Virus record (IMG/VR): IMGVR_UViG_3300048580_000526
Location: 1-64,000 of that record
DNA length: 64,000 bases
Reading direction: 5' to 3' (one strand)
DNA from: a virus
Position numbers and translations under genes: made by a program. Shown here one piece after another: positions 4,430-62,189 of the stretch. The first letter of the stretch is position 1. Every line of letters begins with the position of its first letter. The notes beneath the pieces are model-generated. The model saw only the letters and a program-made list of their open reading frames with translations, was not told the DNA's origin and made no database searches.

Positions 4430-7400
4430 TTATCTTTTCAAAGGTTTCATATCAACTGAACCTTTCTTTGGAATTGGATTTGGTTTATCACTTTCAATAT
4501 CCACATCTGGTTCACTGGTCGAATGGTCTTTATCAAATTCTGGATCTGCATCACCCCAACCTGAATTTATACCACCATGTTCACCAACAGGTGTAGTCAA
4601 AATTTCTTTAACATGTTTTGCAGCTGCTTGTCCATGCGTCCATCCATCCCAAACATTTTTTGGATTTGATGCTTGTGGGATTTTTAATTCCATACCTGGT
4701 TTGATCATGTGTGGATTTGTCAATTCTGGATTTGCTGCAACCAATTGTTCTGCTGTTACATGATAATGTTGTGCAATTTTACCAATTTGATCACCTGATC
4801 TAACCACATAATCTGTTTGATATTGTGGGGCGGCGGCGTTGTTTTCACCGTTACCACTATCTGCTGGTGGGGCATCCCTTCCAGAATCTGGTGGTAAATC
4901 ATTGTCATAATTTTTAACTATACCATCTGTATTTTCACCACCATTTGCATGATAATTAATATCACCATCAGTTGGTTTATGAACATAATCTTCTGGTTTA
5001 TCAACTGGTTTGACACTATAATCTTCTGATTCTTCTGGTTTGAAAGTATCACTATCACCATCACCAATATTTGTATCAATTGTTGGGACACTTGCGCCAC
5101 CCCAAATTTGACTGATTCCATTGACTATTTCATGTCCTGCCCATCCGAATAATGCACCAATCAATGCACCAATAATCAATTCTTTGAAAAGTTTGGCTGT
5201 ATCCCTTTCCCCATTATAATATCTCCAACATCCTTTTATACAAGCACCCAAAACAGCAGTCATTGGTGGGGTGAGCATACCACCAGACGCAAATCCAGCA
5301 AGCATCACAATTATACCAACACCAAGACCTTCCAAAATTTTTTCTTTATTATTTTTAATTTTATCAATTAATTGTTTGAAAATTTTACCATCACCTTGTG
5401 ATAAATTTTGTCCTAATTTATCTTCAACATGAGCACATAAATCTTTAATATTACTTGGTGTTCCATTCACACCATCTGTTTCTGGTGCTGGTGGTGGCGC
5501 AGGAGTTGCTTCTGGTTTATCTCCCTTATCTTTTTCACCTGTTGGTTTATCACCTGTTGGCGGATTTGTTGGTGGGTCGTTTGGTGGGTCATCGTTTCCA
5601 CCACCACCTGCTGCTGGTTTTGGCGCAGGGGTTGCTTCTGATTTGTCACCTTTATCTTTTTCACCTGTTGGTTTATCACCTGTTGGTGGATTTGTTGGTG
5701 GGTCATCGTTTCCACCACCATTACCACCACCAGTTCCACTGTTTACATTTCTTCCTTTATAAACATCATCACCATATACTTGTCCACCTCCGTTTCCACC
5801 TCCGTTTCCACCTCCGTTTCCACCTCCGTTTCCACCTCCGTTTCCGCTTCCACCACCATAAATATTAATATTATTAACATTATTAGCAGATGCTACGTTT
5901 TGATTATTGGAATCAGCTTCAGCTTTAATTTCTGTATTAGCAGACACTGTTTTTTCATAATCAACATTTCCTTTTTTAGTGAAACTGATAAGATTACCAA
6001 CAATTTTATTGACAACTTCTGGAGGTAAATTCTGTCCAGAATTTTTAGCTACTGCTTTATTTTTTTGTTTGCCTTTAGGCATTTCTGTAAATTCTGCATC
6101 TATAATATCATTAACACCTTTGTTTAACAAAGGTGTTTTACTTGTTTTACTTCTTTTACGCCCTTTAAATTTATGAAAATTATTACCTTTTTCATCAGTA
6201 GTTGTTTCATCAGTATCTTCAACATCAGTACCACTATGAGCACCAACTTGTTGATTTTTATTTCGAGCTTTAATTTGTGCTGCAGTCGCAGGGGGTGGTG
6301 CTTCCATAACCAATGATTCATTAATAATATTCATAAATTTTCTTATTGAATGATTTGTTGTAGATTCACAAGCAATGGTTTTCTTATATTCATCAACACT
6401 TTCACCAACTGCAGATTTAACTGCTGTTTTGTTCTTTGCAGCATCATTAGAAGCTTTCTTTTTCAAATTCAAATTACCTTTGCTATCAACAGTTAAATAA
6501 TTGTCAACAGCAAACGAGAATACTCTAAACGATTCTGGATTATTATCATTGGCGAATTTCTTTATTTCTTTATTATATGTTGCATTATAATCTTCAATAA
6601 TTTCTTTTTTAAGGTCTTTTCTATCCTTACCATTAAAAAATTTTGGGAAATTTGAATATGCTATTTTATATTTAGTATCATATTTGATGCCATTTTTTGT
6701 TAATATTTTATCAACAGATAATGGGGCGAAAAATCCACAAAGAACCCTATAAATAGATGTTGCAGACTTTGATTTTAATTTATCAATGGCTTTAACGACA
6801 ACAGCCTTTGATGGAATTTTAACATTAGGAGCTGACATTTCTGGTTTTTCTTTTTTCTTTTCTTCTGGTTCTTCAAATAATATTCTATTATATTCCCTAT
6901 AAATAGATTCATTTTTTGTTGAAGTAGCCAATGATGCTAATTTTGTAAATGCTTTTTTCAACACACCAAATAAATTAATAAATGATGATAAAGCTTTCAA
7001 CCCCTTCTTTCCTTGAGTTTTGACAATATTATACATTGCTTCAATTTTTTTAACAAGACCAGAATCACCCAATACTTCTTTAGCTTTATTTTTAATATCA
7101 TCAATAGAATCTGAAACAGCTTTAACAGCATTTTTAGTCATATCAGCCACTTTCGCTGCACCAGCTTTTATAGTATCAATAATACCTTCATCTAATCTCA
7201 TTCCAGCATTTTGACATTTTATGGCAATTCTTCTGGCTTCTTTTAATCCATGGCGTTGAGCTATTATAGGCAACACAGCATTAATGAATTCTGGAAATAT
7301 ATTTCTATCCCAATCTTCCAAAAACACTCTTGTGTTTTTATCAAGAACTCTATATTGATGTTCTGTTATAAAAGATTTGCCGCATATAAAAGTGGTGTTT

Positions 7401-14424: not shown

Positions 14425-14461
14425 TCCCTATAATAGAAAAATGACCAGGAGGTTACCAAAA

Positions 14462-15550
14462 ATGGCTAAAATAAATTTTCCGTTAAATGATGATGCACCA
14501 CATGTTATGCAAAAATTTAATGTAGCAGATGAAGCGTTTGCAAAATATAATCCAAAACAACGTCAGTTGTTAGTGGAAGATGAAGAAGATGTTCCAATGG
14601 ATGTTATCCCAGATGATGTTCTTCCAAGACGCCCTGTTAGACAACAGGCTTATGATGATTTACCAAATTTTGCCCCAGCTTATCAAAACACTGTAGAGGT
14701 GAAATTCGATAGAACCATTGAACGCAATCAAAACCCATTGGCGAAGTATTTTAGAAAACCCGGGACTTTCGTGAACCTTCCAACCAAGGGGCAATTCTAT
14801 AATGACCGCACAATCAAAATGACGAATATGGGGCAAGTTGCAGTTCAACCAATGGCTGCAGCCGACGAATTGTTACTACAAAATCCTGATGCACTTTTTA
14901 ATGGGGAGGCGATAAAAGGGTTAATGAAAAGTTGCATCCCAGATTTATATGATGTTGATGCACTTTTGACACCAGATGTTGATACGTTGCTTTTGGCTAT
15001 TAGAGTGGCTACTTATGGAAATGAAATGGAATTGGATATTAGCTGCCCAAATTGTGAAGCAGAAAACCAGTTTGCTATTAATATCAAAGAAGTGTTAGGG
15101 GAAATTACGTTTTTGGATTCTGAATACACCTTTACTTCATTGAATGGATTGACTTTTCATTTGAAACCTTATAGCTACAAAACAACCATCACAGCGTCTT
15201 TGGCTGCTTATGAAGAAATGAAATTCCTCCAAGCGTTCAAGGATGCACCAGAGGATGTTCAAAAGTTAAAATCCAAAGAAGCGATGGGAAGAGTGTCCAA
15301 CTTGGCAATTGATTTATTACCTGATGCTATTATTAAAGTCACTACACCTGATGGTGATGAGATTTCGGACCATGATTTTATTAAAGAATTTATTCAAAAT
15401 AGTGACAAGGTAACGACAAAATCAATCCAAGATATTGTTCAACAATTGAATAACACTGGTATTAATAGAAAAGTTCAAGTGGATTGTGTTAATTGCGACC
15501 ATCATTGGGAGACAGAAATTTCTTTTGATCCAAGCCATTTTTTCGGATAA
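14462..15550 (+). CDS. 26: Baseplate hub protein (gp26-like)
   Basis: Belongs to the T4 gp26 baseplate family. The ATG at 14462 follows AGGAGG; an earlier ATG at 14441 overlaps that site. 362 residues, longer than T4 gp26 (208) because of an acidic N-terminal extension. Core signature: GEAIKGLMKSCIPDL, then DTLLLAIRVATYGNEME, then CPNC, and a second CVNC near the C-terminus before HHWETEISFD. The four cysteines probably bind zinc. Starts a plus-strand late unit with the gp51-like gene, 5 nt apart. Confidence 0.85.
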   Translation: MAKINFPLNDDAPHVMQKFNVADEAFAKYNPKQRQLLVEDEEDVPMDVIPDDVLPRRPVRQQAYDDLPNFAPAYQNTVEVKFDRTIERNQNPLAKYFRKPGTFVNLPTKGQFYNDRTIKMTNMGQVAVQPMAAADELLLQNPDALFNGEAIKGLMKSCIPDLYDVDALLTPDVDTLLLAIRVATYGNEMELDISCPNCEAENQFAINIKEVLGEITFLDSEYTFTSLNGLTFHLKPYSYKTTITASLAAYEEMKFLQAFKDAPEDVQKLKSKEAMGRVSNLAIDLLPDAIIKVTTPDGDEISDHDFIKEFIQNSDKVTTKSIQDIVQQLNNTGINRKVQVDCVNCDHHWETEISFDPSHFFG

Positions 15551-15844: not shown

Positions 15845-16492
15845 ATGATTAATATTTACACTGATGGAAGTTGTTATGCGAGAACCATGGGAACCAATAA
15901 TAAAGGTGACGGTGGTTGGTGTGCTTTATTTGAAATTGAAGGAAACATTGAAATCATTTCTGGTTTCGAAACTAATACTACAAATAATCGTATGGAAATG
16001 ATAGCAGCCATAAAAGCCATCGAAGCACTACCACTTGGGTCAAATGTAAAAATTTATTCTGATTCCCAAATTTTAATTAATGGTATGACTGGTAATTCAA
16101 AAAGAATGAAAGTTTGGAAGGATGTTTGTGAAGCAAGAAAAAAATCCCCAAAATATGACATGGATTGTTTAAAAGAAAAAATAACCATTTTAGAAAATTC
16201 TTTCAAAAAGTCATTTAAAAAAGCTGGTCCTGAAAAGAAAATAAATTTAGAAAAGAAATTTATTTTTCAAAAGGAACAACTCGTCAATGAATTTGAATCT
16301 AAATCAGGAAACTTTAGTAAGTTAGCAGAACTTGCCAATTGGGATTTGTGGCAAAAATTAGAAAAAATAGCACATTATCATGACATTGATTGGGTTTGGA
16401 TTAAAGGACATAATGGAAATAAATACAATGAGGTCGCAGATCATTTCGCCAGTTATGCAGCCACCAATCAAAAAATCCTTGAATTAGAATAA
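15845..16492 (+). CDS. Ribonuclease HI with a charged insertion
   Basis: Cleaves RNA in RNA-DNA hybrids, probably removing primers. All catalytic residues are visible: Asp7 (YTDGSC), Glu51 (NNRMEMIAA), Asp73 (YSDSQ), His189 (KGHNGN) and Asp199 (EVADHFA). At 215 residues it exceeds the usual 150-160 because about 65 highly charged residues (98-164, rich in Lys and Glu) replace the short handle region between MKVWKD and WDLWQKLE. T4 Rnh is an unrelated flap nuclease type, so this is a different solution. RBS GAGG ahead of ATG 15845; an intrinsic terminator follows. Confidence 0.9.
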   Translation: MINIYTDGSCYARTMGTNNKGDGGWCALFEIEGNIEIISGFETNTTNNRMEMIAAIKAIEALPLGSNVKIYSDSQILINGMTGNSKRMKVWKDVCEARKKSPKYDMDCLKEKITILENSFKKSFKKAGPEKKINLEKKFIFQKEQLVNEFESKSGNFSKLAELANWDLWQKLEKIAHYHDIDWVWIKGHNGNKYNEVADHFASYAATNQKILELE

Positions 16493-16512
16493 AGCCCTTT
16501 AGGGGCTTTTTT
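16491..16512 (+). terminator. Intrinsic terminator after RNase H
   Basis: AAAGCCC, TTTA loop, GGGGCTTTTTT, overlapping the stop codon region. Confidence 0.85.
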
Positions 16513-16920
16513 AATATCCCGAAAATTTTTTAGTTCACTTTAAAGTCAAGACACTCTCTGAAATTTTTATTGAAACAATGGTAGCATTATGTCTGATGTT
16601 TTTATCAGAGATATCTCTCTGAAATTTTTATGAGTATTCTTTTTAATATTTTTTAGAGAGATCTATTCATTAATGTTCTTTTTATTTTTACGGGGAGATA
16701 GTTTTATTTAATTTTCAGCGCGATTATGTTTTTATTTTTACGGGGAGATATAATTTTAAAGTACTCAATTCTGTTTCCCATTATATTGTTTTAATTATAA
16801 GAAGAAGAGTTGTTATTGAAAGGGAGATCACACACTCTACCCTAAGAAAAACATATCGAAAAAAAGTACACAAAATTATCTCTATGTTTTTCCTAAAGTA
16901 AAGTAAATTTTTTGTGTGAA
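16513..16920. ncRNA. Repeat- and hairpin-rich noncoding block
   Basis: No credible gene. Perfect inverted repeats: TCTCTGA 16555-16561 with TCAGAGA 16605-16611; CTCTCT 16615-16620 with AGAGAG 16655-16660; GAAAAACATA 16846-16855 with TATGTTTTTC 16883-16892; ACACAAAA 16868-16875 with TTTTGTGT 16910-16917. The last two interleave, so they form a pseudoknot or two exclusive folds. A 22-nt element ending ACGGGGAGATA occurs exactly twice (16679-16700, 16729-16750). Strand and boundaries unknown. Confidence 0.4.
16679..16750. repeat. Exact 22-nt direct repeat, two copies 50 nt apart
   Basis: Both copies run from a T-rich half into TTACGGGGAGATA (16679-16700 and 16729-16750). The related GGGAGATCACA and GGAGATCACA occur at about 16822 and 17401. 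Confidence 0.85.
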
Positions 16921-17780
16921 GTATTGACTTTTCAACCACTCAAATATCCTAACCAAATTGTTAGATGACGAATTCTTTTATGAATTTCTAACTGGAAGGC
17001 GGGCTACTAATCCTTCCAAGATTCGGTTTCTACCTTCCCTTTACAACGAAGTATTTTACGGGAATAGCCGGTGTCCACGCTTGGCTCGTGATATTATAAC
17101 CAAGATAAATCGGATTTTAAAAAATGCGATTATGCTCCTACGACCTGAGATATTTGACGAAGTGTTTTTTGTTTTAGAATTTAGTAAAGACTAAATCTAA
17201 AATATAGCTTCTATTAAACGCTGACGTTTAATTAACATTCTTCTGGAAAAAATTACTACTCACATGATATTCATTTTAACTGTTTTGTAGGTTTAGATAA
17301 TCACAATAATTTTATTTTATTATTTTTTCATTATTGACTACAAACTAAATGCGAAGCCAAATAATCATCCCATACGGACGGAACTATTAATTCCTTACAT
17401 GGAGATCACATGGATTGCAGGTTGTCAGTGCTGGGACATTGCCTGCTCATTCTTACAATAACCATCAGTTATTGGTCCCCTTTTACACATTTAAGTGATG
17501 GCGGTTTCGGAATATAATTACAATTAAAGTCAATAATTACATTAGATATCCTTGCTAACAGCTACCCTTTAATAGCTTGATAATATCCACCCGTTCTTTC
17601 CAAACGATGTCAATAGCCACACCTCAACATTACGGTCCTGTATTCCGTTAATTGTTTAAATACCAATGCTATTGTGAGTTTTACGCCTGGTGGCAAAAAT
17701 GAGTAGTTAGAATATAGTTAGTGAGCCAATATTCATTTACTATAGATTGACGTCATCTCTGATGTCTATATTAATTTATC
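16921..17780. ncRNA. Candidate large structured RNA
   Basis: About 860 nt with higher GC in places than the surroundings and a succession of perfect stems: TGGAAGG/CCTTCCA (16993/17012), CTTGG/CCAAG (17080/17100), TTTGTAG/CTACAAA (17284/17338) enclosing CAATAAT/ATTATTG (17304/17330), GCAGG/CCTGC (17417/17442) with inner TGTC/GACA, CAATAAC/GTTATTG (17456/17468) with a five-base loop, AGCTA/TAGCT (17560/17573), CGG/CCG with flanking pairs (about 17626-17656), and TATAGA/TCTATA (17741/17765) with inner CATC/GATG. The only open frame (16958-17194) has a TTG start and no protein-like character. Large ornate RNAs such as GOLLD and ROOL occur in phages; I cannot assign this one to a family. Confidence 0.5.
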
Positions 17781-17996
17781 TGTAAATTTGAATTTTTGAC
17801 AAAAAATTTTAACAATTTTAAAAAATAAATACTAAATATTTTAAACAATTGAATTACAAGGAAAAAATTTTATTATGTGGGGGTTTTTCAAAAAAAAGAT
17901 AAATAGATGTGGTAATCAAATGAATATCAATCATTTGAAACTGGACACTGGAGTATCAGCTGTCCCACAACAATATTTATACTGGGGTAACCGAAA
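17781..17996 (+). other. AT-rich leader of the HNH gene
   Basis: Low-complexity A/T run, a TTGACA at 17796 without a convincing -10 box, a GATAAATA at 17898-17905, and a hairpin-prone CTGGACACTGGAG segment at 17941. Ends with GGGGTAAC before the ATG at 17997. Nothing else is evident. Confidence 0.4.
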
Positions 17997-18929
17997 ATGA
18001 ATTATCAATTTATATATGAACAATTAATTAATAAAGCTAAAGAAAGAAATTGGACTAAAAAAACATCAAATTGTTATGTTGAAACCCATCATATAAAACC
18101 AAGAATTTTATTTCCAGAATTGATTGATGATAGCTTTAATTTGGTATGTTTAACAGCAAGAGAGCATTTTATTGCTCATCTTTTATTGGCTAAGATATAT
18201 GGTGGGAGTATGATTTATGCTGCCAATGCTATGATGTATAAAAATAGGAAAAAATATAATAACAAACAATATTCTTGGTTAAAGGAAAAATTTTCAGATT
18301 TGATGAGTGATAAATTTTCTGGTATCTCACAAAGTGAAGAACATATAAATAAAAGAGTTAAAAAGACTAAAGGTAAAAAAAGAACAGATAAATCTAAAAA
18401 ATTATATTCAGAAGCAGCCAAAATAAGATGGAATTCTATGTCAGAAGAAGAACGAAAATTGGAAAATCGTTTTACCCCAGAACAAGTTGATGATATTAGA
18501 AAAAAGAAACAAACTACACACCAAGAAAATTTTCAACCAAGAACATTTGAAGAACTGTATGGTGAAGAAAAAGCAGAACAAATGAAACAAAATTTATCAG
18601 AAAAACATAAAACTAATTGGGAAAATAAAACTGAAGAAGAAAAACAACAACACGCAAATAAAACACGGGAAATTTATAATACTTATTCAGAAGAAAAGAA
18701 ACAATTAATTAGTAAAAAGAAATCTGAAGCAGGTATAAAAATACAACAAAAAATATTTGAACAAAAAATAGATTTATATAAACAAATTGCTAAATTAATA
18801 TTGGAAGGATTCAAAAATAAATATATATCAACAAAATTAGAAGTTTCGAAAAGTTTAGTTTGTTGTGTTAGGCATAAAGAACATAAAATATGGAAATATA
18901 TAGAGGATGAACAAAATGGAAACAGTTAA
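17997..18929 (+). CDS. HNH homing endonuclease
   Basis: 310 residues. The HNH core is near the N-terminus: ETHHIKPR (29-36), then NLVCLTAREHFIAHLLLAKIYG, the pattern of free-standing phage HNH endonucleases. The rest is very Lys/Glu-rich, with repeats such as E(E/K)KAEQMKQNLSEKHKTNWENKTEEEKQ that resemble helical DNA-binding modules, and a C-terminal helix-turn-helix-like ISTKLEVSKSLVCCVRHKE. It would cut DNA and spread its own gene. It lies directly behind the structured noncoding block, raising the question whether both arrived together. Its end overlaps the next gene by 14 nt. Confidence 0.85.
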   Translation: MNYQFIYEQLINKAKERNWTKKTSNCYVETHHIKPRILFPELIDDSFNLVCLTAREHFIAHLLLAKIYGGSMIYAANAMMYKNRKKYNNKQYSWLKEKFSDLMSDKFSGISQSEEHINKRVKKTKGKKRTDKSKKLYSEAAKIRWNSMSEEERKLENRFTPEQVDDIRKKKQTTHQENFQPRTFEELYGEEKAEQMKQNLSEKHKTNWENKTEEEKQQHANKTREIYNTYSEEKKQLISKKKSEAGIKIQQKIFEQKIDLYKQIAKLILEGFKNKYISTKLEVSKSLVCCVRHKEHKIWKYIEDEQNGNS

Positions 18930-19437
18930 ACGAAAAAAATCACCATCAAAATCAAAAGGAAATAGGGGGGAAAGAGAAATTTGTATGTTTCTTTCCGAAA
19001 CATTGGGTGGATCATTTGTTAGAGTCCCAAATAGTGGTGCCTTTATTGGTGGGAAAAATAGTTTTAGAAAAATGTCTTTATCAAATACACAGCAGATATT
19101 ATCAAAGGGTGATATTATCCCGCCAGACAATTTACCAAAATTAGTGATTGAAAGTAAAAATTATAAAGATTTTTCATTTCATCAACTTATTTGTGATGGG
19201 GATTGTAAACAACTTGATGAGTGGATCGAACAAACAGTTTGTGTGTGTGATGATTCTGATGTTTGGTTTACTATTTTTAAAATTAATAATAAATCTACTT
19301 ATATTGTGTTTGATGGTAGATTAGTAGAAAAATTTATTATGCCAACAAATTATGTTAATTATAAAACTTTTATAATAACAGAAATGAAACCATTTGTTAT
19401 TAAAAATAAAGAAAATATTATAACTATTTGTAGTTAA
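18916..19437 (+). CDS. PDDEXK-type nuclease
   Basis: 173 residues from the ATG at 18916, preceded by GAGG. Restriction-like core: GNRGEREICMFLSE, an exposed RVPNSGAF motif, KGDIIPP with the metal-binding Asp, and VIESKNYKD giving the E-x-K. This arrangement matches a family of small nucleases found in T4-like phages and resembles Holliday-junction resolvase and RecB-like folds. DNA substrate unknown; a role in recombination or DNA processing is likely given gp46 and gp47 nearby. Its start lies inside the end of the HNH gene, so the two are co-transcribed. Confidence 0.8.
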   Translation: METVKRKKSPSKSKGNRGEREICMFLSETLGGSFVRVPNSGAFIGGKNSFRKMSLSNTQQILSKGDIIPPDNLPKLVIESKNYKDFSFHQLICDGDCKQLDEWIEQTVCVCDDSDVWFTIFKINNKSTYIVFDGRLVEKFIMPTNYVNYKTFIITEMKPFVIKNKENIITICS

Positions 19438-22256: not shown

Positions 22257-24425
22257 TTATTCCTGCATAAAAGAAGTAAACGAATTTTCCTTTATAACCT
22301 TTAACACATTACTTGAACGATTCAACAATTCTTCTCGATGGGAAATCAAGAATACGCTTTTGGCACGATCCCTTGAGAACGTTTTCAAAATATCATAAGC
22401 TGTTTCCACCCCGATAGTATCAAGCCCACTATCAAGGATTTCGTCAATAAAAAATAGATTAATATTGGTGTTCATACTTTCCCAAATATCCCTAAACGCC
22501 CAACTCAACCCAAGAATCAAACGATTATGCTCACCACGGGAAAGATTTCCGGCATCATAATCATGCCCAAGGTAGGTAATTTCCACATTCAAATCGTTCA
22601 TAAATTTGACTTCGTGTGGCAACCCTAACTTGGCAATATAATGGTTCAACCGATGATTTAGGAATGCAAGATTTTGGTCGATAATTTTTTTACGAATGAA
22701 CGAGTTCTTGTCTGTCAATAGCTTCAACAATATCGCTTGATGGTCCCTCAACATATACAGGGATTCGAGTCTATCACGATTCACCACCTGAAGTCCATCA
22801 TCTCTTGTCTGGTTGATTTGTTCAATGAATGGATTAATCAACCCAACTTCCCTATCTCGTTCTGAGATCAACTTCTCCAACTTCAACCGATGTTCATATG
22901 CTTCATCAACTGTGTCATAATAGGTTTTACAATTCCCAAATACAATGGCTTTCAATTTTTCAATTTCACCTTCAATCATCCCAACATCGATTTCATTAAC
23001 TTGTTCCAAATATGGGTTAACATCTTTTTCTTCACGTTCCAAATCTTTTTCCAATTGTTCAATTGTGGAACGATGGTTATAAGCATCGTTGATTTTATTG
23101 TAATAGGTTTTTGTATCCCCCAAATCCCCCAAAGCTTTGTTTTTTTCTTCAATGGATTTTTCTAAAATTTCAACTTCATCTTGTTCTTTTTTCAAATCAG
23201 TGGTATGTTTTAAAATATTCCCATTCAATTCTTCAATCAATTCATCCAAAGAACTATCATGAATTTCTTGTCCACAAGTGGGGCAATTATGTTCAACAGC
23301 TTTGGCGAGATTATCTTGTTCTTTCTTTAGTAACGTTTCCAATCTTGTGATATTCTTGTCTTTCTGTTTAAAAGACGTTTCCAAGTGTGAAATTTCAGTT
23401 ACTAACGTTGCTTTTTTGGTTTTGTTTTCATGGGCTGCTAATTCATTTTCAATATTGATATGGGAAAGCTCATCGATGGCTTTTTTATATTCCAAGACCC
23501 TTACAACCTTATCATCATCCCATTTATCCAATTTGGTTTTCAACGCTTTAAACGAAGTCAACTCTTTTTCCAACCCAACGACCAACTTATCATTTTCTAA
23601 TTTTTTAGCTTTATTATCGTGTGCTACCAATTCAGCATCAATATCAACGTGAGACAATTTATCAATTGATAAATTCAAACGCTTGACGTTACTACTATTA
23701 TCAGCATCCCAAACCTTCTTTCTATTTTCCAAGTCAGAGATGATTTTTTCAACTTTTTCGTTGGCTTTAGTGATAGCTTCAATTTTAATTTCTTCTTCTT
23801 TGATATAATCTTTGGTCCCGTCAATACCAAGTGCTTTGTCACCATTCAATAGGGCTTTTAATTTATCTGCTTTTAACGATAGCATTGTAATACCAAGAAG
23901 TTCTTCGATTATTTCTCTTTGATCTTTGGCTGCTAAATTGAGGAATGGTGTTGTATAGGTATTCAGTGCTATAATATGTTTGAATAATGAAGGGGAAAGA
24001 CCTAACACTTTGACGATTTCTGCATTAGTCCACTTTGAGTCACCATGGGATTCATCATTATCTGGTACCAATTGTTCTCTATCACCTACATACCAACGGG
24101 TAAAAGTTGGTTTGCGTCCACGTTCAATACGATAATTTATACCATCTTTTTCAAAATCCAAAATAACTTCCATTTCTTTTGAATTACTTTTGTTGACGAG
24201 ATTATCTTTTTTGATTGGTGTAATTGGCCAAGAAAATAGGGCAAATGATATGGCGTTCACAATCGTGGATTTTCCAGTCCCATTACGGGCAGCATTTGGA
24301 TCACCAATTGCGTCTAAATTTTCACCCATAATGAGGGTTAACCCTGTTGCGTCTAAATCAATTACCTGTGGAACATTACCGACTGAAAGAAAATTTTTAA
24401 TAGTAATTCTTTTTAATTTTAGCAT
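22257..24425 (-). CDS. 46: Recombination endonuclease subunit gp46 (Rad50/SbcC-like)
   Basis: ATPase subunit of the gp46-gp47 complex, which resects double-strand ends for recombination-dependent replication. 722 residues against 560 in T4. Walker A is split by an insert: MGENLDAIGDPNAARNGTGK. Two coiled-coil arms flank a zinc hook NCPTCGQEI near residue 378. Near the C-terminus are the signature LSRGEHNRLILGLSW and Walker B LFFIDEILDSGLD. RBS AAGGAAAC before ATG 24425. It follows gp47 directly, as expected for a co-expressed pair. Confidence 0.95.
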   Translation of the reverse strand: MLKLKRITIKNFLSVGNVPQVIDLDATGLTLIMGENLDAIGDPNAARNGTGKSTIVNAISFALFSWPITPIKKDNLVNKSNSKEMEVILDFEKDGINYRIERGRKPTFTRWYVGDREQLVPDNDESHGDSKWTNAEIVKVLGLSPSLFKHIIALNTYTTPFLNLAAKDQREIIEELLGITMLSLKADKLKALLNGDKALGIDGTKDYIKEEEIKIEAITKANEKVEKIISDLENRKKVWDADNSSNVKRLNLSIDKLSHVDIDAELVAHDNKAKKLENDKLVVGLEKELTSFKALKTKLDKWDDDKVVRVLEYKKAIDELSHINIENELAAHENKTKKATLVTEISHLETSFKQKDKNITRLETLLKKEQDNLAKAVEHNCPTCGQEIHDSSLDELIEELNGNILKHTTDLKKEQDEVEILEKSIEEKNKALGDLGDTKTYYNKINDAYNHRSTIEQLEKDLEREEKDVNPYLEQVNEIDVGMIEGEIEKLKAIVFGNCKTYYDTVDEAYEHRLKLEKLISERDREVGLINPFIEQINQTRDDGLQVVNRDRLESLYMLRDHQAILLKLLTDKNSFIRKKIIDQNLAFLNHRLNHYIAKLGLPHEVKFMNDLNVEITYLGHDYDAGNLSRGEHNRLILGLSWAFRDIWESMNTNINLFFIDEILDSGLDTIGVETAYDILKTFSRDRAKSVFLISHREELLNRSSNVLKVIKENSFTSFMQE

Positions 24426-41600: not shown

Positions 41601-42482
41601 TACAGTGGTACAGCATGGGTTCCATTGACTGGCACGACTGTTGATGAAGATGTTGTTTATGCTAATGGATTGTTCTTCATTAGAACATTTGATGGTTCAA
41701 AAGCTGTTCCTAATTACTTTGAACAAGTTGATAACGTTTATGGTAATGTTGTGTTTGATTGGAAAAATAAAAAATTCTGGAAATGTGACCCTATCACTAA
41801 CCCATTATTGCCTTGGACACAAGCTGCAGATGGAGCATATGAATATAATGTTGGGCGTGTTAATTTGGATTACCAATGGAAACATTATGCACCAAGAGAT
41901 CAACGAATTGACCCAGCAATTACAAATATTATTGATTTGTACGTATTGACTACAGAATATAATAGGTCATTGCGTAATTGGATAGCTACAGGGACATTGA
42001 CAACTGATAAACCACTACCACCAACAATTAATGAACTTCAAAGTTCTTTTACAGAATTTGAAGATTTCAAGATGGTATCAGACCAATTAATTTGGAAGCC
42101 AGTTAGATATAAATTATTATTTGGTAATGCTGCAGATGACAATTTGAAGGCTATAATTAAAGTAGTGAAAACTAATAGCACAACAATGTCTGATGGTGAA
42201 ATTAAGAGTGCAGTTATTACTGCGATAAATAATTACTTTAGTTTAGTGAATTGGGATTTTGGTGAAACTTTTTACTTTACAGACATGGCTGCATATATCC
42301 ATCAACAGATGGCTACTATCATTGGTTCTATTGTTTTAGTACCATTAAATGCAGAAGCAAAGTTTGGAAATTTATTCCAAATTAAATGTGAATCTGATGA
42401 ACTTTTTATAAGTTGTGCAGATGTTACAAACGTGACAATTGAGACTAATTTTAATAATTCAACATTAAGGATTGGGAAATAA
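38700..42482 (+). CDS. 6: Baseplate wedge protein (gp6-like), enlarged
   Basis: 1260 residues against 660 in T4 gp6. N-terminal signature: ASYDFNTIRTSMVNYIRANY, WIESSEFIFILDLLAYLGEQ, LAFRFDLNVRENFMDTAERK, RLARMLSYSPKRN. A gp6/gpJ-type core continues with RVRAPRVYYTQNRMVSGEDYN. The C-terminal part has VRYKLLFGNAADDNLKAII and FGETFYFTDMAAYIHQQM. Residues about 770-815 form a small Trp/Tyr module (VWQSNTVYQQGEFVLYNGKT...SWVEV) like carbohydrate-binding modules of the 5/12 type. The stop overlaps the next start by one base. Confidence 0.9.
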   Translation: MAQATRQNELLAAEVWETIYQSFSSINFASYDFNTIRTSMVNYIRANYPEDYNDWIESSEFIFILDLLAYLGEQLAFRFDLNVRENFMDTAERKDSILRLARMLSYSPKRNYPASGLLKIEQITTTESLVDSNDRDLSNRVISWNDPANADWFEQWVIVMNAIFTNTNPFGRPVNQGTILGIQTELYTMNNMPFTIPTMSFSADIDGTGMNFEIVNPNFTDGEYFYEVPPNPVNSFGLLYQNDSLGNNSNNTGFFFYFKEGNLQKEDYYLQNPTENRVLDINTTGINEPDVWFHEITDNGLFIQEWKNVPTLFGENIIYNSIAATVRNIYTVTTREDEQISLRFADGRYGSIPQGFYRLWYRTSNGLVYRIKAQDIQRQEVSMRYYNSRNELNTVTFTFSLKDTVSNSQPAETTEEIRVRAPRVYYTQNRMVSGEDYNLFPQRSNVAVKVKAVNRTYSGHSRYIDINDPTGTYQNTNVFSNDGIIYKAREDTYKNISRSTNLTPTQIVIDELQPLLVTTEMKNFLFEQLASQFILTANNTPNMPGTPNAIFWVPITWTASDSTIYNHTGIFSTSVSQGTGGNNADYITEGAMIKFASAGWVKVESIVNYGNEFPNNDRTVAGEVVLSAIVKTGDTVLQIKPAFDTTLVQVEISSFETYIRNSNTFAIRYDIPTKTWKAIDGNHINLTNDFNLSTAGDVLNQNNDSSWLVYVEYSPDSWNITARGMIYVFESVKDTRFFYVNNYKVTDLTTGLAKRDYIKIVSTNKRPTSNPMVWQSNTVYQQGEFVLYNGKTWRATVANTALNTIPQTGSTSWVEVPVSSFGEDLYFKVYDSFIYNDGHVETRRVKIDFYDSQDDGLPDDPESFEKIVMNDFFNGDVQLSERFRYAFWETYTETDGYLYKRPNLNVRQLPNLESGNIYYYSTAATNKITSITSYANISTPTLTGAAIGDLYMIYFDIDDNNSALIWRYSGTAWVPLTGTTVDEDVVYANGLFFIRTFDGSKAVPNYFEQVDNVYGNVVFDWKNKKFWKCDPITNPLLPWTQAADGAYEYNVGRVNLDYQWKHYAPRDQRIDPAITNIIDLYVLTTEYNRSLRNWIATGTLTTDKPLPPTINELQSSFTEFEDFKMVSDQLIWKPVRYKLLFGNAADDNLKAIIKVVKTNSTTMSDGEIKSAVITAINNYFSLVNWDFGETFYFTDMAAYIHQQMATIIGSIVLVPLNAEAKFGNLFQIKCESDELFISCADVTNVTIETNFNNSTLRIGK

Positions 42483-45400
42483 TGGCAAATAACGAACAAC
42501 TTTTTATATACGCAGACATAATTCAAGTACCAGATAAAAGAAAAATGATTAAACAACTTCCAGGGGTTGTTCAAACACAAACATTGCAAAATTTCTTTTC
42601 TGCTACTGTGGATCATTTATTTCAACCAGTTCAAAGTGAACGTGTCGCAGGATATATTGGTCAAAAGCCATCATATTATGACCCATCCAAAGATTTTTAT
42701 GTTCCAGAATTATCTCAAGAACGTTCAATTTATCAATTGGAACCATGTGCAACCACAAAAAATGGTAATAGCATCACCAATGCAATTTTCTTCGCAGATT
42801 TATTACAAGCATTGCGTTCTGAAGGTGCTAATATAACCAACCAAAATCGTTTGTTTGAGCAAGATTATTATTCTTGGTGTCCACCTATCAATTTGGATAT
42901 GCTTATCAACTACTCCCAATACTATTGGCTTGAAAATGGTCCAGAACCAATTTTAGTTAAAACAGCCACTGATATTGATACACAATTGGTTGGTAAGACA
43001 GCACCAGATGCAGCTGACTTGACTTTTGGTGATTCAGGTTCTGTAAAAATCACTTCTGGTATGAGAATAATATTATTAAACGACTCAAATCCAGCTTATA
43101 ATGGAAAAACTATATCTATTGAAGGCGTTGGGAAAAGTATTTTTATCGTTGAATTTAATGAAACAGACCTAAATTCTACACCATGGGATTTATTCCCTTG
43201 GGATAGGTTTGATTGGGATTTGAGTACTTTGACAAGTTCTGATTATATCATCATGGAACGAGGCTGTAAGGATACAAATTCTTGGGCAAGAAACAATCAC
43301 TGGTATCATAAAGACGTTCTTTTGGCATCAAATACTTCATTGTTTACTAACATTAATAAACAAGCCAGTAGACCTATTATTTGTTTTGAACGCAACTTGG
43401 AACTTTATAATTATGGGGATTTTAGAAGAAGTTCTGTGGACCTTATTGATGTTGATTCACAATCTATGGACCCATTTAATAATTTCCACCCACCACAAGG
43501 GGAACGTTGGGTATTATTACAGGTTGATGGTACGTTGCAATTTATTAATGAAAACAATGGGATATCATACCAAGAACAAATTAGAACATTAAAAGCACAA
43601 TATCCGGAACAACCAGAAAAAGTTCAAATTATTAAAAATGGTAGTACGATTTTATTTACTGCTATTATTGATAGCGATGTTAAAAACAACAAACCATATT
43701 TGGTAAAAATCGACAATCCAGTTTCAACAAGCAGTGTTAATTCTTGGGATTCTGAACCATTGGATATTGATGTATGGGAAGAATCAGACCCAGACATTAG
43801 CTTATCATATTCTGAAATAATAACTGGATTCTTGCGTTTTACACCTGTCACTGACAGTCAAGATGGAACAGCTGGACCAAACATTGGTGATATTATTAAA
43901 ATAAAATTTGGTGAATATCAAGGGAAAGAGATGTGGTTTGATGGGCATAATTGGATTATCGCTCAAGAGAAGAAAGACGTTAACCAAGAACCATTATTCA
44001 CCCTTTATGATGCTAACCCAAATGGTAATGTTGGGGTAAGATTGGATGATGAAACCCGTTACCCAGGAAGCTCATTCAAGGGAAATAAAATTTTTGGGTT
44101 CTTGTTGAACACAGATAATAGAACTGTAACAGATCAATATATTGGTAAAAAATTAACCTATAATGAATGGGGCGAAATAAAGTATCAAGATTTCTTGGAT
44201 ATAGTAACTGACAACGATTTGGTTAATACTCGTTATACCTATACAAAATCAAAATACAATAACCAACCAATATCAGGTTATTATTTCTGGAAAATTAAAT
44301 CAGATGAATTTTATGGTAATAATTGGTGGACTGTTAACGAAACATCAAAACAATTTATCGTTGATAATTTTATAGTAACATCTGACCAACCAATAATTAA
44401 TAAACAAACATTCATTGGTGATGGGGTAACTTCATCGTTTATTTTGAATCATAATGTTCCAACAAAAGATTATTTGAGGGTCGTGGTAAAAGATTCTACC
44501 ACCAATACAAATATATTTTATAAAATGGATGATAATAGTAATAAGGTTGAATTTTATGACATTCCATCTGTTGGACAAGTTATAACTTTTTATCACTATA
44601 GTAAACCAAAATCTAATTTAGAATTTATTATCAGTCAAGAACCAGATGTTAATTTACTATTAAATAAACAAGATAATTTGATGGTTTATATTAATGGAAA
44701 AGTCGCAACACCAGGTGAACATTATTTATTAGTTAACCAAAGAGAATTTGATGCCACAACACCTATTAGTAAAATAGCAATATTACAAACAACAGATTCA
44801 ACAAACATTAGTATTATGAAAAATACTAACATTACAGTTAAATCATATTCTCCTCTCACACCTGATTTGGACATTAATGGGCACTATGAAATACCAAATA
44901 ACTTGGCAATCAATCCAGATTGGAGTGAAGTATCTTATATAACATCAGACCAATTCTTACCACAATTTAGTGCTATTATTAAGAACCAACCAAATTTTTC
45001 TGGTATTGAATATGAAGCCAATAATTGGAGAGATACTATACAGGATCGTTCACTTGGTAGGACAATTATCCAACATACATCCCCATTATTGCGCCTTATG
45101 ATAAGCAATGCCAATGATGATTTGGATTATATGAAGTCCAGTCGTTTTGTGGAAACAGAATACACCAGATTTAAAAATAAATTCTTACAAAAATTGACTA
45201 AATTTTGGATTAAAGATTTTATTCATGTAGACATAACATCAACCACAGAAGCACAAAGAAAAATTGTAAAGAAAGCTGCCATTGATAGTATTATGAAAGA
45301 AATCAACCTTGGAAAAGTTTATAAGGTATCACCATTCTCATATTCCAATATGGCTGGTATGAATTGGTTTATCCCCCCAACTCCAAGTTTTCTTGGATTA

Positions 45401-48400
45401 TTCCCAACATTCAAACCAGAAAAATATGTTGATGATACTTACCTAACTCCTATTGAAGTTATCCAATGCCATGATGGTTCATTGTTGAAAACTTTTGGTG
45501 ATTATCGTGATGAAATTATTTTGGAATTGGAAACATTAATTTATGAATCAATCCCATTAAAATTTAGAGATGGAAATCCACATAATGCATTCCAATACAA
45601 ACGTTATTTCCCAGGAAAATTCAGAACACAACTTTCGGAATATACAAGGGAAGAAATAAACACCATTTCACAACCTATGTTTGAACGTTGGGTATCTGAA
45701 AACCAACAATCATATCGTCCACATACAGGATTTGATTATACAAATTTGTGGACTTATAACTGGTCCACTTCTACAGATAATTTGGGAAATCCAGTACCGG
45801 GACATTGGAGGGGAATCTTCAATTGGTTCTTTGATACAGATAGACCTCATACTCATCCATGGGAAATGTTAGGTTTCAGCGAAAGCCCTGACTGGTGGGA
45901 AACATATTATGGACCAGTCCCATATACAAGAGGGAACATGAACCTTTGGGAAGATTTGGAAAAAGGTATTATTCGTGAAGGTTCGAGGGCTGGTATTGAT
46001 CCATATTATGCAAGACCTGGGCTATTGAATATATTACCAGTTGATGAATATGGACACTTGATAGACCCATGGACAGCAGGTATGTTGAGAAGAAAACCAA
46101 ATTATTCAGAAGCAGAAGCAGATTGGGTATATGGTGATGGTTCACCAGTTGAAACAAAATGGAAAAAAACTTCACAATTCCCGTTTGCAATGTCACAAAT
46201 TGGATATTTGATTAAACCAGCACGTTGGATGGAACAATGCTGGAACCCATTAGACGATGAATTTATTTATGACCAAAAACAATTAATCAGAAAGTCAACA
46301 TTGAATAGAAGTTCTCATTCAAAATTCACAGTTCATGGTGAAACTTATAATGGGCAATTGGTTATAAATTATGGTTATCAACAATGGATAACTGATCGCT
46401 TATTATCAAACAACAAATCACCTGGAAGCAATTTCGGTGATGTTATCAGGGCACTTGGTGTTCAACTTGGTTATAAGGTTGGTGGGTTCTGTAATCCATA
46501 TACATTCTATGCTGATAACATTTTGGGTTCATTGCCAGCAGAAAATATTAATCAATTTTTATACAGAAGCCCATCTGTCAGGGAAGAAATCTACAGTGGT
46601 GTAATCATTGAATGGACAGGACGTTCTTATAAAGTTTCTGGTTATGATTCCATAAATCCAGTGTTCAAGATCATCCCAAGCGACGTTTTTGGTAAGAAAG
46701 TATCACATGACGTTGGTGGGACTGTTACCATCCAACCACCAGAATGGCAACAAGGGATTCTTTATAATGTTGGCGACACAGTAATGTTTAACTACACATA
46801 TTATAAGGCTATTAAAACAAATCAATCCACTACTTATTTCGACCCTACAGTTTGGGTGGAGACAACATTGAGTGCATCATTAAGTGGCACCACTGTTTTT
46901 GAATATTTGGAACCAATTTATGACAGACGTATTGAGACAATTCCATATGGTTATGAGTTTAGTTCAAGACAAGATACTTTTGATTTCTTGGTATCTTATC
47001 AACGCTATTTAATATCTCGTGGATGGGCATTTGATGATATTGATGAAACCACCACCAACGAAAAAATTGATTGGATATTATCAGGTAGATTGTTTGTTCA
47101 ATGGTCATTGGAAAGAGATAAGAACGTTGGGACATTTATTAAATTATCCCCATATGCAATTCATGCCCAATACAAATCCTCCTTTGGCTCTATCCAATCA
47201 ATTGAGCAAGTTCTCAATGGTGTGTATAGCTTGTTGGATGAAAATGGCTTTATTATTGAACCTCATGATATAATTTCTATGCGTTCTGATGACGTTATGG
47301 ATATCAATTTATTATTAAATGATCGTTCATTATCATCTGTTAGATTGTTCGTTAGTGAAATTGAGCATGTTATATTATTTGATAACGTCACAGTGTTCAA
47401 TGATTTGATATTTGACCCATTATTTAACCAACGCCAAGTTCGTTTGAAGGTCGATGGCACCAGAACACTTGCATGGAATGGAAGAATTGATGCCCCTGGT
47501 TATATCATTAGTGATAATTTGATTTATCCAAACTTTGAAAAAACCGCCAAAGATTTCTTGCGACTTTATGGCATTGAGGACGTTGTTGATAACGTTGAAT
47601 TACAAAACCGTGCTCGTCACCTTATTGGATACCAAGAGCGTCCATATTTACAAAATCTTCTTTTGAGTCCAACCACAAATTTCCAATTCTACCAAGGGAT
47701 GATTCATGCGAAGGGTTCTCGTGGAAGTATGACCAAATTATTCAGAAGCGAATATGTTTCAGAATCAAGGGACTTCAAAATATTTGAAGAATGGGCGTTC
47801 AAGTTGGGCGACTACGGCGCAATTGACACCAACCCAACCATGGAGTTTTATTTAGACCCATTGAACGGAAAACAAATCACTGAAGACCCACAATTGGTTA
47901 CCTTTAATGAATTACAAAACAGTTCATCCTTGCCAGCAGAACCAAGCGACCTCGATGATCGTTATGATAATATTATTTCACTTTATGACTATTTTGAAGA
48001 TGGTAAATTGGTAACACCAGATAAACGCTGGTTGCGCCGTCCAAATGGTATTGGTAATCTATGGGAAAAACGAGACTTTGGGTTCTATGCATCAGATATT
48101 CCAAACGCTGGTCCAATAAAATTAGATGAAGTTGATTATTTCATAACCAATACTACAGAATTATTGAAATTCTCCACAAATTTACGTGTTGATAAAAACA
48201 AGTCATTGACAGATGGTGAAAGATTGTGGATATATGACACTGGTTGTGGTGATTGGAGTGTTTATCGTGTTACAGGTGTTACATCAAATAGTGCAAGTGT
48301 AACATCTGTGAGTCTGAATGCATCAATTGACCAAGATTCATTGTGTGGTTTAGACGTTTCCACAGTCACATTAATTCCTAATCAAAAAATGGATTTAACA

Positions 48401-51400
48401 TCTGTACACAGTTTGGTAGATGGACAATATTTTGTTGTTGTTGAACAACCAAAGTACCCATTAGGACAATATGAAAGTTTGTTGGGGACTTATAAGGCTG
48501 AGATTGGTACACATGGTACTATGATTTATTATTCTTCACCAAATACCATATCTAATACTTGGACAGATGGTACTGGACCACAAATTTTTTCATATATGCC
48601 AATGAGATACCCAACATTGAATTCTGTTACTGGTATTAATCCAAATACAGGATGGAAATCAAAAAACAATAATTATATTTTTGAATTAAATTCGAACGTC
48701 TTGGCAGTTGATTCAAATGGGCATTATATTGGGAGTTTAAAATTAATCGATTCATCTAAAATCAACAGTACTACTATTTTGGGTGTGTCGTTAGAGTTGG
48801 TTACTCCAACAAATAATATCCATAACGAAGCTTTTACAGTTGAAATTGGTAATGTATTTAAAAATAATTATTATACATTCACTACCCCATCATTAGTTTC
48901 TAATGATTTGGTGCAATCATTTACATTAAATGATAATATTGCAGGTACAGGTTTGAGACAGATTATTATTGGTTCAACACCACATAATTTTAATGCAAAA
49001 TATAAAATTGGTACACAAATTGTTGGAAAAATTTCAAATATACAAGTTGATATTACACATGCTTTTGCACAAACAGTTAATCCAGTTACTTTTAGTATTG
49101 GTACTTTGGCTGATCCAAACAAATATATTGTGAGTGGTTCTGTTAATATCACTGTTATCAACACTGTTGTATTTGATACTTTGCATGAAATATATGAACC
49201 AGAAGATATTTATGTGTTTTATGATTTGGGGAATATCCCAGACCAATTGGGTTCAATGAATGTTGCAATCACCTATAAGAATGAAATTGATTATACCACT
49301 AACGTTTTATACACCACCAACGATGATTTGATGATGTACTATAACTTTGGTACTATTTTACCATCTGACAACGCCATGGGCACCTTTAGGGTTCATATTA
49401 CTATTAAAGAAGACAACAGTGATATTATTTGGGTTGATGATGCGAGAACATCTTATGAAATTCAAAAATCCATCACACCATATTGGGCATCTTACATACC
49501 TGCAATGATGGAGACAACAATTTCCTATAACGACCAAAAATATTTTAATGGGAATAAATTCCTAACAGCATCAACCCCACGTAATCTTTTTAATAATGAA
49601 GATAGATTGATTAATAAACAAATTACAAGAATTGAAGTTGAAGTGCAGGAAGCATTTACTAATACATCCACAGTATTTAATGGAAGTTTTGATTATAGTG
49701 ATTTAGGGTCTGCTAACACTACTGTTATTAACGGGCAATCTTGGATGTACAATGAAATTAATTTGGTTGGTGAAACATCTAATGCTATGGATGGTGTTGT
49801 GACTGATTTACAAATCACCATTGCAAGTCAAGGTTCATTTGTTCGTCCAACAACAATTAAATTGTTTACACCAAACACTTCTTATGCTGCAGGGGCATTA
49901 ATTTGTCAAAATGGATTGATTGAAAAAGCAAGAGTTTCATTCACCAGTGGTGCAACATACAATCAATCAGATTGGATTCAGATGCCAAAGTTGCAAATGA
50001 TGATTGGTACAATGTCCAATCCTAATATTGTTTTGAATGAAAATATTATTGATTTGGCTACAGCTAATGTTACAGATATACCAATGAAAGTTGAAGTAAT
50101 ATCACCAAACGTTGGTTCACCAGAAGCATTGTATGTTTTCTATAACTTCAATCAATATAATATTAATACAAGTAACACAAGTGCTGTGACAATTTCTGGT
50201 ACAATTAAATCATTTGTGAAAATTGGTCATATGTCTGGTAATAATTTTGGGTTCGCCCCAATAGTTCTCACAGATGAACTAAAAACCACAGGTGTTTACA
50301 CTTATGCACCAAAATATTATTATGATTCATTATTGAAAACAAATAACTTGCAAATTGGTATAGTTGGACATGACACATCTACAGGTAAAATCATTGTTCG
50401 TGTTACCACATGGGATCAAACATGGGTACAAGATCGTGTTGAAATCAAGAAAATTTCACCAAATCAAATTGAATCAGCATTATTATATAATATTGAAACA
50501 GATCGTATTGAACGTTATTTGACATATTATGATTTATATAAGGGCATCGTTCCAGGTAATGCTAATAGGGAAATTTATTACAGAACATTAACAGACCCTG
50601 CAAAATACACACATGGAACTGGATTGTCTGACAAAAATATTGACCCAGAACAAGCTTGGGGTATGCCAGAGTTGGGCAGAGTTTGGTGGGACTTGTCCAC
50701 CACACGTGCATTAGAATATGAAATTGGTGATGACTTGCAATACTCTTGGAAAAATTGGGGCAAGACAGTTCCAAATTCCACTATTGACATTTATGAATGG
50801 GTTCGTTCTCCAGTTGCACCAAAAGCATTGGCTGCAGGCAATTCATCATTCAACGCTTCATCCTATTCAGGGCAATTGGACGGTATCGTTAAAGACGCCG
50901 ACAATCCATTCTGGGTCGAGAGTAAAGAATTTGACAAGACCGTTGGGACTTTTAAAACTTTTTATTATTTCTGGATGAAGAACAAGAACACCGTTCCAGC
51001 AGTACCATTTAGAAACGTTTCTGTATCGCAAGTAGCGGCAATGATCTCCAACCCATCTGGGCAGGACATTCCTTGGTTTGCGCCTATCAACGAAAACTCC
51101 ATTCTTTTGGGATCGCTAAAACAATACTACACCAATGGTAATATCGTTCTCCAAATCAACTGGAAAACTGGTACTAACGATGGTAACATCCATCGCCAAT
51201 GGGTGTTGTTGCGTGAAAACGACCCAATGTCACAAATTGACACAAGACTTTGGAATAAAATGCGTGACAGTTTAACTGGCTGGGATTCCTATAGCGAGAC
51301 GGTTGTAAATCTTGATGGAAGCCATTCTGTTGTGTCTACACCAAAACAAGTCCCAGAGCCAAATTTGACAATCGTACAAAAATATGGTACACTATATCGT

Positions 51401-54400
51401 CCTCGTCAAACATGGTTCAAGACTGAAGCTGACAACTCACCATCACGTATGGCAAGAAAAGTGTTAGTCCAAAAATTGAATTCATCGTTTATGGACAGGA
51501 CAACACCATTTGTGGATGACTATGCAGATTTCGTTGAATCGTTAAATGTCAGTTCTCCAATGCCTGCTGCAAGGTTCAAGCCTGTAGTTAGCCAAAACAT
51601 TGCATATACTAACACAACATCTCCTATTACTTTGAAGCCAAGTGTTATTGGGTATTTGTCACTTATAACCATCACAGTGACTACAATGTTCGTCCAAGGT
51701 TCTCCAACAATATCTGTTGGTACAGATGCCAATCCAGAATTGTTTGTTCCAAGATCATCTGTTAATTTAAAAACAACAGGTACTTTTATATTTGGAACAA
51801 AACATCTATTGAATAGTAAAACAGATATTAAAATATTCACAGATTTTAATAACTCTATCGCTGGGGAATTCAAAATTGCAGTGACAACTGTTGAAGCTAA
51901 CCTTGATGGTTATGATTATGTTGTTGGACCAACTAATGATGGGGTTACCGGTAGAGAAGTTCGTGATTTACTTCTTTATAACCCAGGATTAAATGATGGT
52001 GATAGGGTTCTTGTTACCAATGATATTGACGTTGCAGGGTTCTGGTCATTTTGGGAATGGCAAAAACCAGCATCATCAAGTGTTGGAAGTTTTGTGATGC
52101 TTGGCGTACAAACATATAATATTAATGTTGCAAATGATGATTTTATTGGTTATGTTGATTGGTATCGCAATGATTCTACCTACCAAATTACTTCTAACAG
52201 CAAACCATTATTTTATTTTGATACCATTGAGGATATGGCTGCTGCAATTGATACTTGGCAAGAAGGTTCATTGGTCGCTGTTAATAATGTTGATGGGCGT
52301 TGGTCTTGGTATATTAGAAGTGTGACTACTATAACACTTGATTTGACTACTGGTTGGGTTCTTGTTGCAAGACAAAATGGGTCCATTGCATTAAATAGTT
52401 CATTTTATAATAACACAACAGTGTTCGCCCCAAAATTTAAAACATTTAGTGAATGGACGATTGATTATGATACTATTGTGGCAAGAGATGGTAGTAATGA
52501 AATAGTTGAGTTGTTGGATATATTACAAACAAGAACAGATGAAGAATTTAAATTATTCCAAAACCAATTATTCTTTACAATGGTGAAATTTGTATTGTCT
52601 CAACAACACTTGGTAGATTGGATATTCAAAACATCCTACATTTACATTACAGGGTTGAATCAACAACTTGAACAAAATCCAGTCGTTATACCAGACAACA
52701 CAGAAAGCATTCTTGATTATATCAAGGAAGTGAAACCATATCACACCAAGATCAGGGAATTCATTCGTTCATTGGCTACTCCACTTGAGGTCAACACCTA
52801 TATTGCCACAGACTTTGATAATCCTTCCACTTGGGATGCACCATTGCTTGACAGCACATTCTTGGGAACCTATCGCTTGGCAAATCCATCTGATTCTGAC
52901 GCAGCGACTGCTGACGATATTGGACCATATGACGAGAAGACTGTTGCTGGACAAACTGGTTTGACAACGAAGCGACCATGGAACGAATGGTGGGCTGCAT
53001 ATTCTGGTAGTGTATCTTTGGCAAACGACGCTACTGGTATGAGAATTGATTATAAAAATAATGACAACAGATCACCAAACACAGAGCACTGGAAATATTT
53101 GAACACTGTCCGCACCTATAACATGGAGATGACATTTGATAGGGTCCAGACTGACCTTGACACATTGATGGCAAAACCATTTGACCAATGGACCACAGCA
53201 GATCACACTTTATTAGCCAACTCTGGTGTAGTGGCAAAAATGTTTGCCCAATACTCTGATTTCCAAGAAAACTGGGTATATTACAAATCCCTAATAAGCG
53301 GTTCACAATTCAGAGGCACTGTAATGGAAGGTGGTGAATTGTTGAATTATGACATTATCGACTTTGAAAACAATCAATGGGATACTCGTCCATGGTCTGT
53401 TTACAATTGGGACGAAACCCAATATAGCGATTCATACCCAACAACCCAAATCAAAAAATTGGTTTTCTCTTATACAGATTTCACAACCCCAATTACGGGT
53501 GTCCCATCAGGGAAGGGAACATGGTATAAGAAACGTATCACAAAAGATTTCGTTGGTATCGTTACAGACGTTATATTCTTGGTTGGTACAGGATTTAAGA
53601 ACGTCCCATTCCAACAAATCACATCATACGTTGGAACCGACGCTGCATTTGATTATTTGGTAGGAAATTCCACAACATCTTCTGATTTTGCGTTTGAAAA
53701 CCAAGATTTGACATTTAGTGGGACATTTGTTCACCCAACTTTCACAGAAATCAACACCAAGCAGGATTTGAACCTTTATGTTCGTCTTGAAGGCACTCCA
53801 ACAGCTGGTGAAGGTTTTGTGGTTGTGAAGTCGGCAGATAAAGTCCAGCATTTAACCTATACAGTTGAGATTGATGGTGCCTCTGGGCAATCTGGTTCAA
53901 AGATGTTGGTAGCCCATTCCATTGGAAACATTTCGACTGTTAAAGTTACAGTTTTGGAACCATTTAGCGCCACAGAAATTCCAAATCTTTCTGTGTCTGT
54001 TGGAACACCATACAACCATTCGTCAATATTGGATTCAAGTTTGGTTAATTTATCAAATTATAAACAACCAGTGGGCACGTCCTATCCAGGTGAAGTGGTT
54101 TACTCCATTGCACAACACAATAGAACACCTGTTAATTTGAACGTATATTATGACTTCCTTCAAGCAACGGCAGGTAAGATTAAAGTTGAAATTAACATTG
54201 ATACTGTAAAACAAAAATTGTCCGCCGCAGGTCCACTTGAACCTTATTATGATTTGGGTGTTAGTGGTGGGACTTTAGAAGGGATTGCCAAGGGTGTTAT
54301 TGAGCCAGCATATGACCCATTAACTGATAATGATCCAAACATTCTTATTGAAGGTGGAAGATTTATCCAACCATATATTGAGCAAGATCGTCCAGAAGAA

Positions 54401-62179: not shown

Positions 62180-62189
62180 GAGATAGAAA

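Follow-up and report, generated by a model that had tools for sequence, protein, structure and literature searches.

Probable gene for a large late noncoding RNA at a conserved locus beside the recombination genes of a jumbo-phage relative

Analysis of a 64,000-nt stretch of viral DNA (the window, part of an 89,963-base IMG/VR virus record) indicated that its single extended gene-free interval is probably the gene of a structured noncoding RNA of ~1.1-1.5 kb. This RNA would be transcribed late, from the minus strand, under the control of a T4-type late promoter (17981-17974), occupy an RNA locus of jumbo phages and act in trans as a free-standing molecule. A preliminary description of the same DNA had suggested a large phage RNA, possibly a new one. 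We retain this reading on the basis of the conserved position, the promoter and the structured RNAs of relatives, but not of the stems on which it was founded, and the candidate is not GOLLD, ROOL, OLE or a known intron.

Gene-free interval and its genetic surroundings

The interval lies between the stop of an RNase HI gene (16492) and the start of a gene encoding an HNH homing endonuclease (17997), and thus covers positions 16493-17996 (1,504 nt). It had been delimited as an 860-nt segment (16921-17780), which is only its middle part; the absence of genes holds for the entire length. As had also been remarked, nearly all of the remaining DNA is tightly coding, and this is the sole real gene-free interval longer than 200 nt in the window. 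A second candidate at the right edge (62179-63353) turned out to be the start of a 1,234-aa open reading frame (ORF) cut by the window end.

The largest ORF within the interval (16958-17194; 78 aa, TTG start) has no match in Pfam or PHROG, and a six-frame translation of the interval revealed no similarity to 5,932 ORFs from relatives. This empty comparison, together with the RNAs carried by relatives at the same place (see below), speaks against a decayed protein gene, the finding that was to overturn the RNA reading.

The genes flanking the interval are unsplit. The RNase HI gene on the left (15845-16492, plus strand; PF00075, 7.5e-28) is intact. On the right, the HNH endonuclease gene (17997-18929, plus strand; phrog_655, 3.1e-46) is located between the predicted RNA and the likewise intact gene of a PDDEXK Holliday-junction resolvase (HJR; 18907-19437, plus strand; PF24608, 5.2e-23), whose product shares 50% identity with the HJR of Sinorhizobium phage Phosso. 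The HJR and baseplate hub genes (hub: 14441-15550, plus strand; PF12322, 8.7e-20) were used as syntenic anchors, as was the gene of the gp46 recombination endonuclease (22257-24425, minus strand; 45-47% identity to gp46 of Agrobacterium phage Atu_ph07 and of Phosso), which is encoded on the same strand as the predicted RNA. Besides gp46 and the hub, which is of the T4 type, portal and baseplate wedge proteins are encoded in the window. Judged by its gene products, the phage is distantly related to the jumbo phages Atu_ph07, Phosso and Pseudomonas phage PA5oct. Single-protein scans of IMG/VR for close relatives returned distant ones only, and a scan of genome contigs yielded mostly alphaproteobacterial HJR homologues and no nearer phage. 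No tRNA gene was identified in the window with ARAGORN. Downstream of the baseplate wedge gene there is one ORF of 5,022 aa (42482-57550).

Late promoter and predicted transcript

Intergenic copies of the T4-type late promoter element, TATAAATA or GATAAATA, are placed 24-42 nt before a same-strand gene in the window, with the exception of two at the edge of the interval, and thereby clearly mark gene starts. The first exception, TATAAATA at 17974-17981 (minus strand), is the sole intergenic element without a same-strand gene close downstream: it is directed into the interval, and the nearest such gene is 3.6 kb away. The second, GATAAATA at 17898-17905 (plus strand), faces it and probably serves the HNH/HJR unit as late promoter; the same face-to-face pair occurs in Phosso and five relatives. 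Chance placed TATAAATA within the first 60 nt in 21 of 2000 shuffles (~1%).

Because the element at 17981 points into the interval, the predicted product is a late RNA of the minus strand that begins near 17968. A bidirectional terminator-like hairpin is present at 16509-16491, and the predicted transcript is drawn over 16491-17968 (minus strand), a gene-free segment whose position is common to the RNAs of relatives. Its 3′ end is uncertain; it is predicted at ~16860, or otherwise no farther than about 16491. Past the likely 3′ end, in the direction of the RNase HI terminator, there are short direct repeats (16554-16758), namely two copies of CTCTCTGAAATTTTTAT and two of TTTTTATTTTTACGGGGAGATA, 50 nt apart.

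In Phosso and five relatives a T4-type late-promoter sequence is likewise found on the RNA strand, 410-490 nt before the RNA core, and PA5oct has such an element near the start of its probable RNA.

Structured RNAs at the same locus in related phages

The gene order hub/RNase H/gap/HJR/gp46 is common to Phosso and the viral loci L013 and L014-L019, and a matching gap is also present in PA5oct and Paride. Phosso likewise has no gene between RNase HI and HJR (1,014 nt), and on the strand that does not encode HJR this interval matches the orphan Rfam family EGFOA, at a score below threshold but in a fitting position. Six large viral contigs, among them a 436-kb IMG/VR contig with the same gene order and an EGFOA match of 35.9 bits, were recovered by a pattern scan with the two most conserved EGFOA stretches, and this order is found wherever the fetched stretch includes the neighbouring genes. 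The EGFOA-like RNAs in the gaps of Phosso and six contigs score 29-37.5 bits. From their alignment (model R1) a domain of 172 nt was derived; of its 46 pairs, 15 show changes in both partners, a result equalled in none of 500 shuffles. In Phosso-clade phages RNase H directly follows downstream of the RNA and is encoded on the RNA strand.

Several minor features were recorded in these RNAs. In L013 a sub-threshold match to manA RNA (RF01745; 20.7 bits; 6143-6327, minus strand) adjoins the EGFOA-like domain. Two Phosso-clade loci, L110 (6096-7064) and L111 (5645-6611), have an RNA interval devoid of the EGFOA core, with a promoter-proximal stretch (CAGATGTAGCTGAATCG..CTACTTTATAGC) in common with EGFOA-bearing relatives. 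A pseudoknot reading of L110 was dropped, as its pairs are not kept in L111.

When gp46 and HJR alignments were used to find further loci, a gene-free interval of ~0.4-1 kb between gp46/HJR and the hub emerged in many other such phages. In a subset of them this interval contains Polynucleobacter-1 (RF01718; up to 115 bits), followed shortly downstream by a conserved pseudoknot domain, CCGU-NNN ... GGxGG ... NNN-ACCG-CCxCC. In this domain 11 of the 18 tested pairs changed on both sides (0/500 shuffles). The corresponding model, R2, is present in 47 loci from viral contigs, their 5′ part being Polynucleobacter-1 where it can be recognised. All 41 loci for which both flanks were available have the RNA between gp46/HJR and the hub, on the gp46 strand in 38 cases and on the hub strand in three; a related pattern on the hub strand was seen in L148, L158, L179, L180, L183 and L184. 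Polynucleobacter-1, described in 2010 as a Burkholderiales/freshwater motif that is probably cis-regulatory (PMC2864571), is by these comparisons one segment of a longer RNA with a constant place in these phages. Models R1 and R2 do not recover each other's members.

A few R2 members share a hairpin followed by UNUGACUGAAU. The 3′ part of this class (alignment A11) has two short direct repeats, ACUC-rNAU-rA and AUCU-rNAU-rA, which vary from phage to phage in a coordinated manner, as would two sites contacting one partner.

The covariation that had been asked of homologous regions was thus found in the RNAs of relatives at the locus, while the window's own sequence has no alignable relative. 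The genes around the RNA vary: RNase H is inverted in the window and missing at the locus in many RNA-bearing relatives, some phages have a 275-aa gene there, and the window has the HNH gene. A gap of RNA size is absent from the locus in Atu_ph07, L060, L116, L132 and L146.

Searches with the window sequence and folding of the interval

The interval of the window shares the position of these RNAs, i.e. between RNase H and HJR as well as between gp46/HJR and the hub, with a late-promoter element on the 5′ side of the predicted RNA. Its sequence was not recognised by any model. No Rfam family reaches its gathering threshold in the window and a permissive scan of the interval gave chance-level matches only, in line with the earlier failure to match it to a named class; the covariance models proposed as a check (GOLLD, ROOL, OLE, group I and II introns) found nothing in the window. 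The EGFOA model (RF02955) gives no more than a match of 17.7 bits at 61846-61955, within an ORF, and the 5′ domain of RF01718 has no match in the window. Within the interval, R1 with filters off scores ~1.5 bits at best and reveals no conserved EGFOA core, R2 scores at most 6 bits, which is not significant, and blastn and nhmmer comparisons with phage and IMG/VR sequences returned no match.

The preliminary description emphasized a dense succession of perfect stems. Individual stems do exist (e.g. 17172-17185/17190-17202, 17213-17219/17226-17232, 17456-17462/17468-17474 and 17749-17766), but they are not in excess over chance and local folding z-scores resemble those of coding DNA. For the whole region z is -1.50 on the plus strand and -0.95 to -1.27 on the minus strand, and the mean in 150-nt windows is -0.52 versus -0.30/-0.34 in coding DNA (Mann-Whitney p = 0.04 for the plus and 0.18 for the minus strand). 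Since the RNAs at the same locus in relatives have z-scores from -1.5 to -7.3, these weak values neither prove nor exclude an RNA. The stems had probably been read on the wrong strand.

Two near-perfect hairpins of the type originally noted occupy 17172-17232 (from sequence and MFE, no strand assigned). The locally strongest fold is a long imperfect hairpin on the minus strand (16839-16904; z -4.7), near the likely 3′ end. Three minus-strand stems within 17417-17479 (17417-17421/17442-17446, 17456-17462/17468-17474 and 17433-17437/17475-17479) were read from the sequence and have no covariation support; the first and the last of them cross and form a possible pseudoknot. A weak candidate pseudoknot core was distinguished at 17606-17497 (minus strand), with CGUUU(GG) at 17606-17600 facing (CC)GAAAC and GGUGG at 17591-17587 facing CCAUC at 17501-17497, around ACCG at 17505-17502. 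It was found post hoc by inspection, its loose definition occurs in 148 of 1000 shuffles and the strict one in 2 of 1000, and the R2 covariance model gave it no support, so it is counted as a lead only.

Comparison with known large RNAs

The candidate RNA gene resembles the EGFOA/R1 loci in its placement between RNase H and HJR, its gene-free length of ~1 kb and the late-promoter-like element ahead of it, but it differs in the missing match to the conserved core, the lower G+C content and the inverted RNase H gene. With the Polynucleobacter-1/R2 loci it shares the interval between gp46/HJR and the hub and, for most of them, the gp46 strand; in contrast to the window, their gene-free regions are mostly ~420-790 nt long and mostly have no late promoter upstream, and their profile finds no match in the window. 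GOLLD and ROOL are also large phage noncoding RNAs, but the tRNA neighbours typical of both are missing from the window, as is a match to either Rfam model. Expression of GOLLD rises during lysis, and both RNAs assemble as RNA-only cages (PMC12286853). The most abundant transcript of phage ICP1 is a noncoding RNA of ~800 nt originating from an ORF-less space of ~1 kb (PMC7567579). It is similar to the candidate as a large phage RNA from a gene-free interval, but it adjoins lysis genes, and ICP1, like PA5oct, yielded no match to R1 or R2. The analogy with GOLLD, ROOL and the ICP1 transcript is limited to size, setting and timing, and we do not claim membership in these families.

Proposed function and alternative explanations

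We propose that late in infection the promoter at 17981-17974 would drive minus-strand transcription across the interval, and that the transcript, from ~17968 to ~16860 or 16491, would fold into a large structured RNA. By analogy with GOLLD and ROOL it would fold, and may assemble, by itself. It would act late and in trans, and not as a leader or intron of a neighbouring gene.

Objections to an RNA are the missing sequence or covariance match of the interval to R1, R2 and Rfam, the folding close to chance, the relatives without a gap and the lack of a late promoter ahead of most R2-class RNAs. The folding, the missing homologous RNA and the HNH gene directly adjoining the interval would also fit noncoding DNA with no RNA product, i.e. 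a decayed gene or debris of the HNH insertion that coincidentally lies at the RNA locus of relatives. We consider this rather unlikely: translation in six frames revealed no protein remnant, neither RNase HI nor HJR is disrupted, the late promoter directed into the interval has no gene to drive, the window is tightly coding elsewhere, and a gap of similar size is kept in relatives.

Quite unlikely, in our estimation, is a cis-acting element, be it a long leader or 3′ region of a neighbouring gene or a replication or recombination site beside the genes of RNase H, HJR and gp46. The recombination genes next door, the Phosso-clade RNA directly upstream of RNase H and the cis-regulatory role once ascribed to Polynucleobacter-1 are in its favour, but RNase H of the window is convergent with the predicted transcript, no same-strand gene follows the promoter for 3.6 kb, and RNase H is missing from the locus in many relatives that carry the RNA. 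Because the flanking genes vary and the RNA orientation flips between phages, the RNA is unlikely to be a leader or an intron. The neighbouring homing endonuclease could moreover belong to a group I or II intron or another associated ribozyme; this seems very improbable, given that no intron model matches, the endonuclease gene lies outside the structured part and the flanking genes are unsplit.

The RNA predicted in the window looks like an unclassified relative or a replacement of the RNAs of related phages. Tentatively, and with slightly less than an even chance in our judgement, it may represent a new class of large late structured RNA, belonging to a set of divergent classes (EGFOA and Polynucleobacter-1 among them) that stem from one ancestral RNA gene next to the jumbo-phage recombination genes or replaced each other at its site. 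The comparisons suggest that large structured RNAs of differing sequence classes share one conserved address in the genomes of jumbo phages. Two orphan Rfam families may have their home at this locus, which also offers a way of testing what role large phage RNAs play.

It is also a place to look for further RNAs, including in the cultured Pseudomonas phages PA5oct and Paride. In both (L011 2668-4160, corresponding to PA5oct 75667-77159, and L199 of Paride) ~1.5 kb separate HJR from a small hub-adjacent gene, and the annotation of this interval consists of tiny ORFs (31-50 aa) or is empty. Its conservation among 11 Pseudomonas phage records is 99.5% or higher; it has a fold z of -2.7 on the gp46 strand and carries GATAAATA near its start; on these features it is probably an unannotated RNA.
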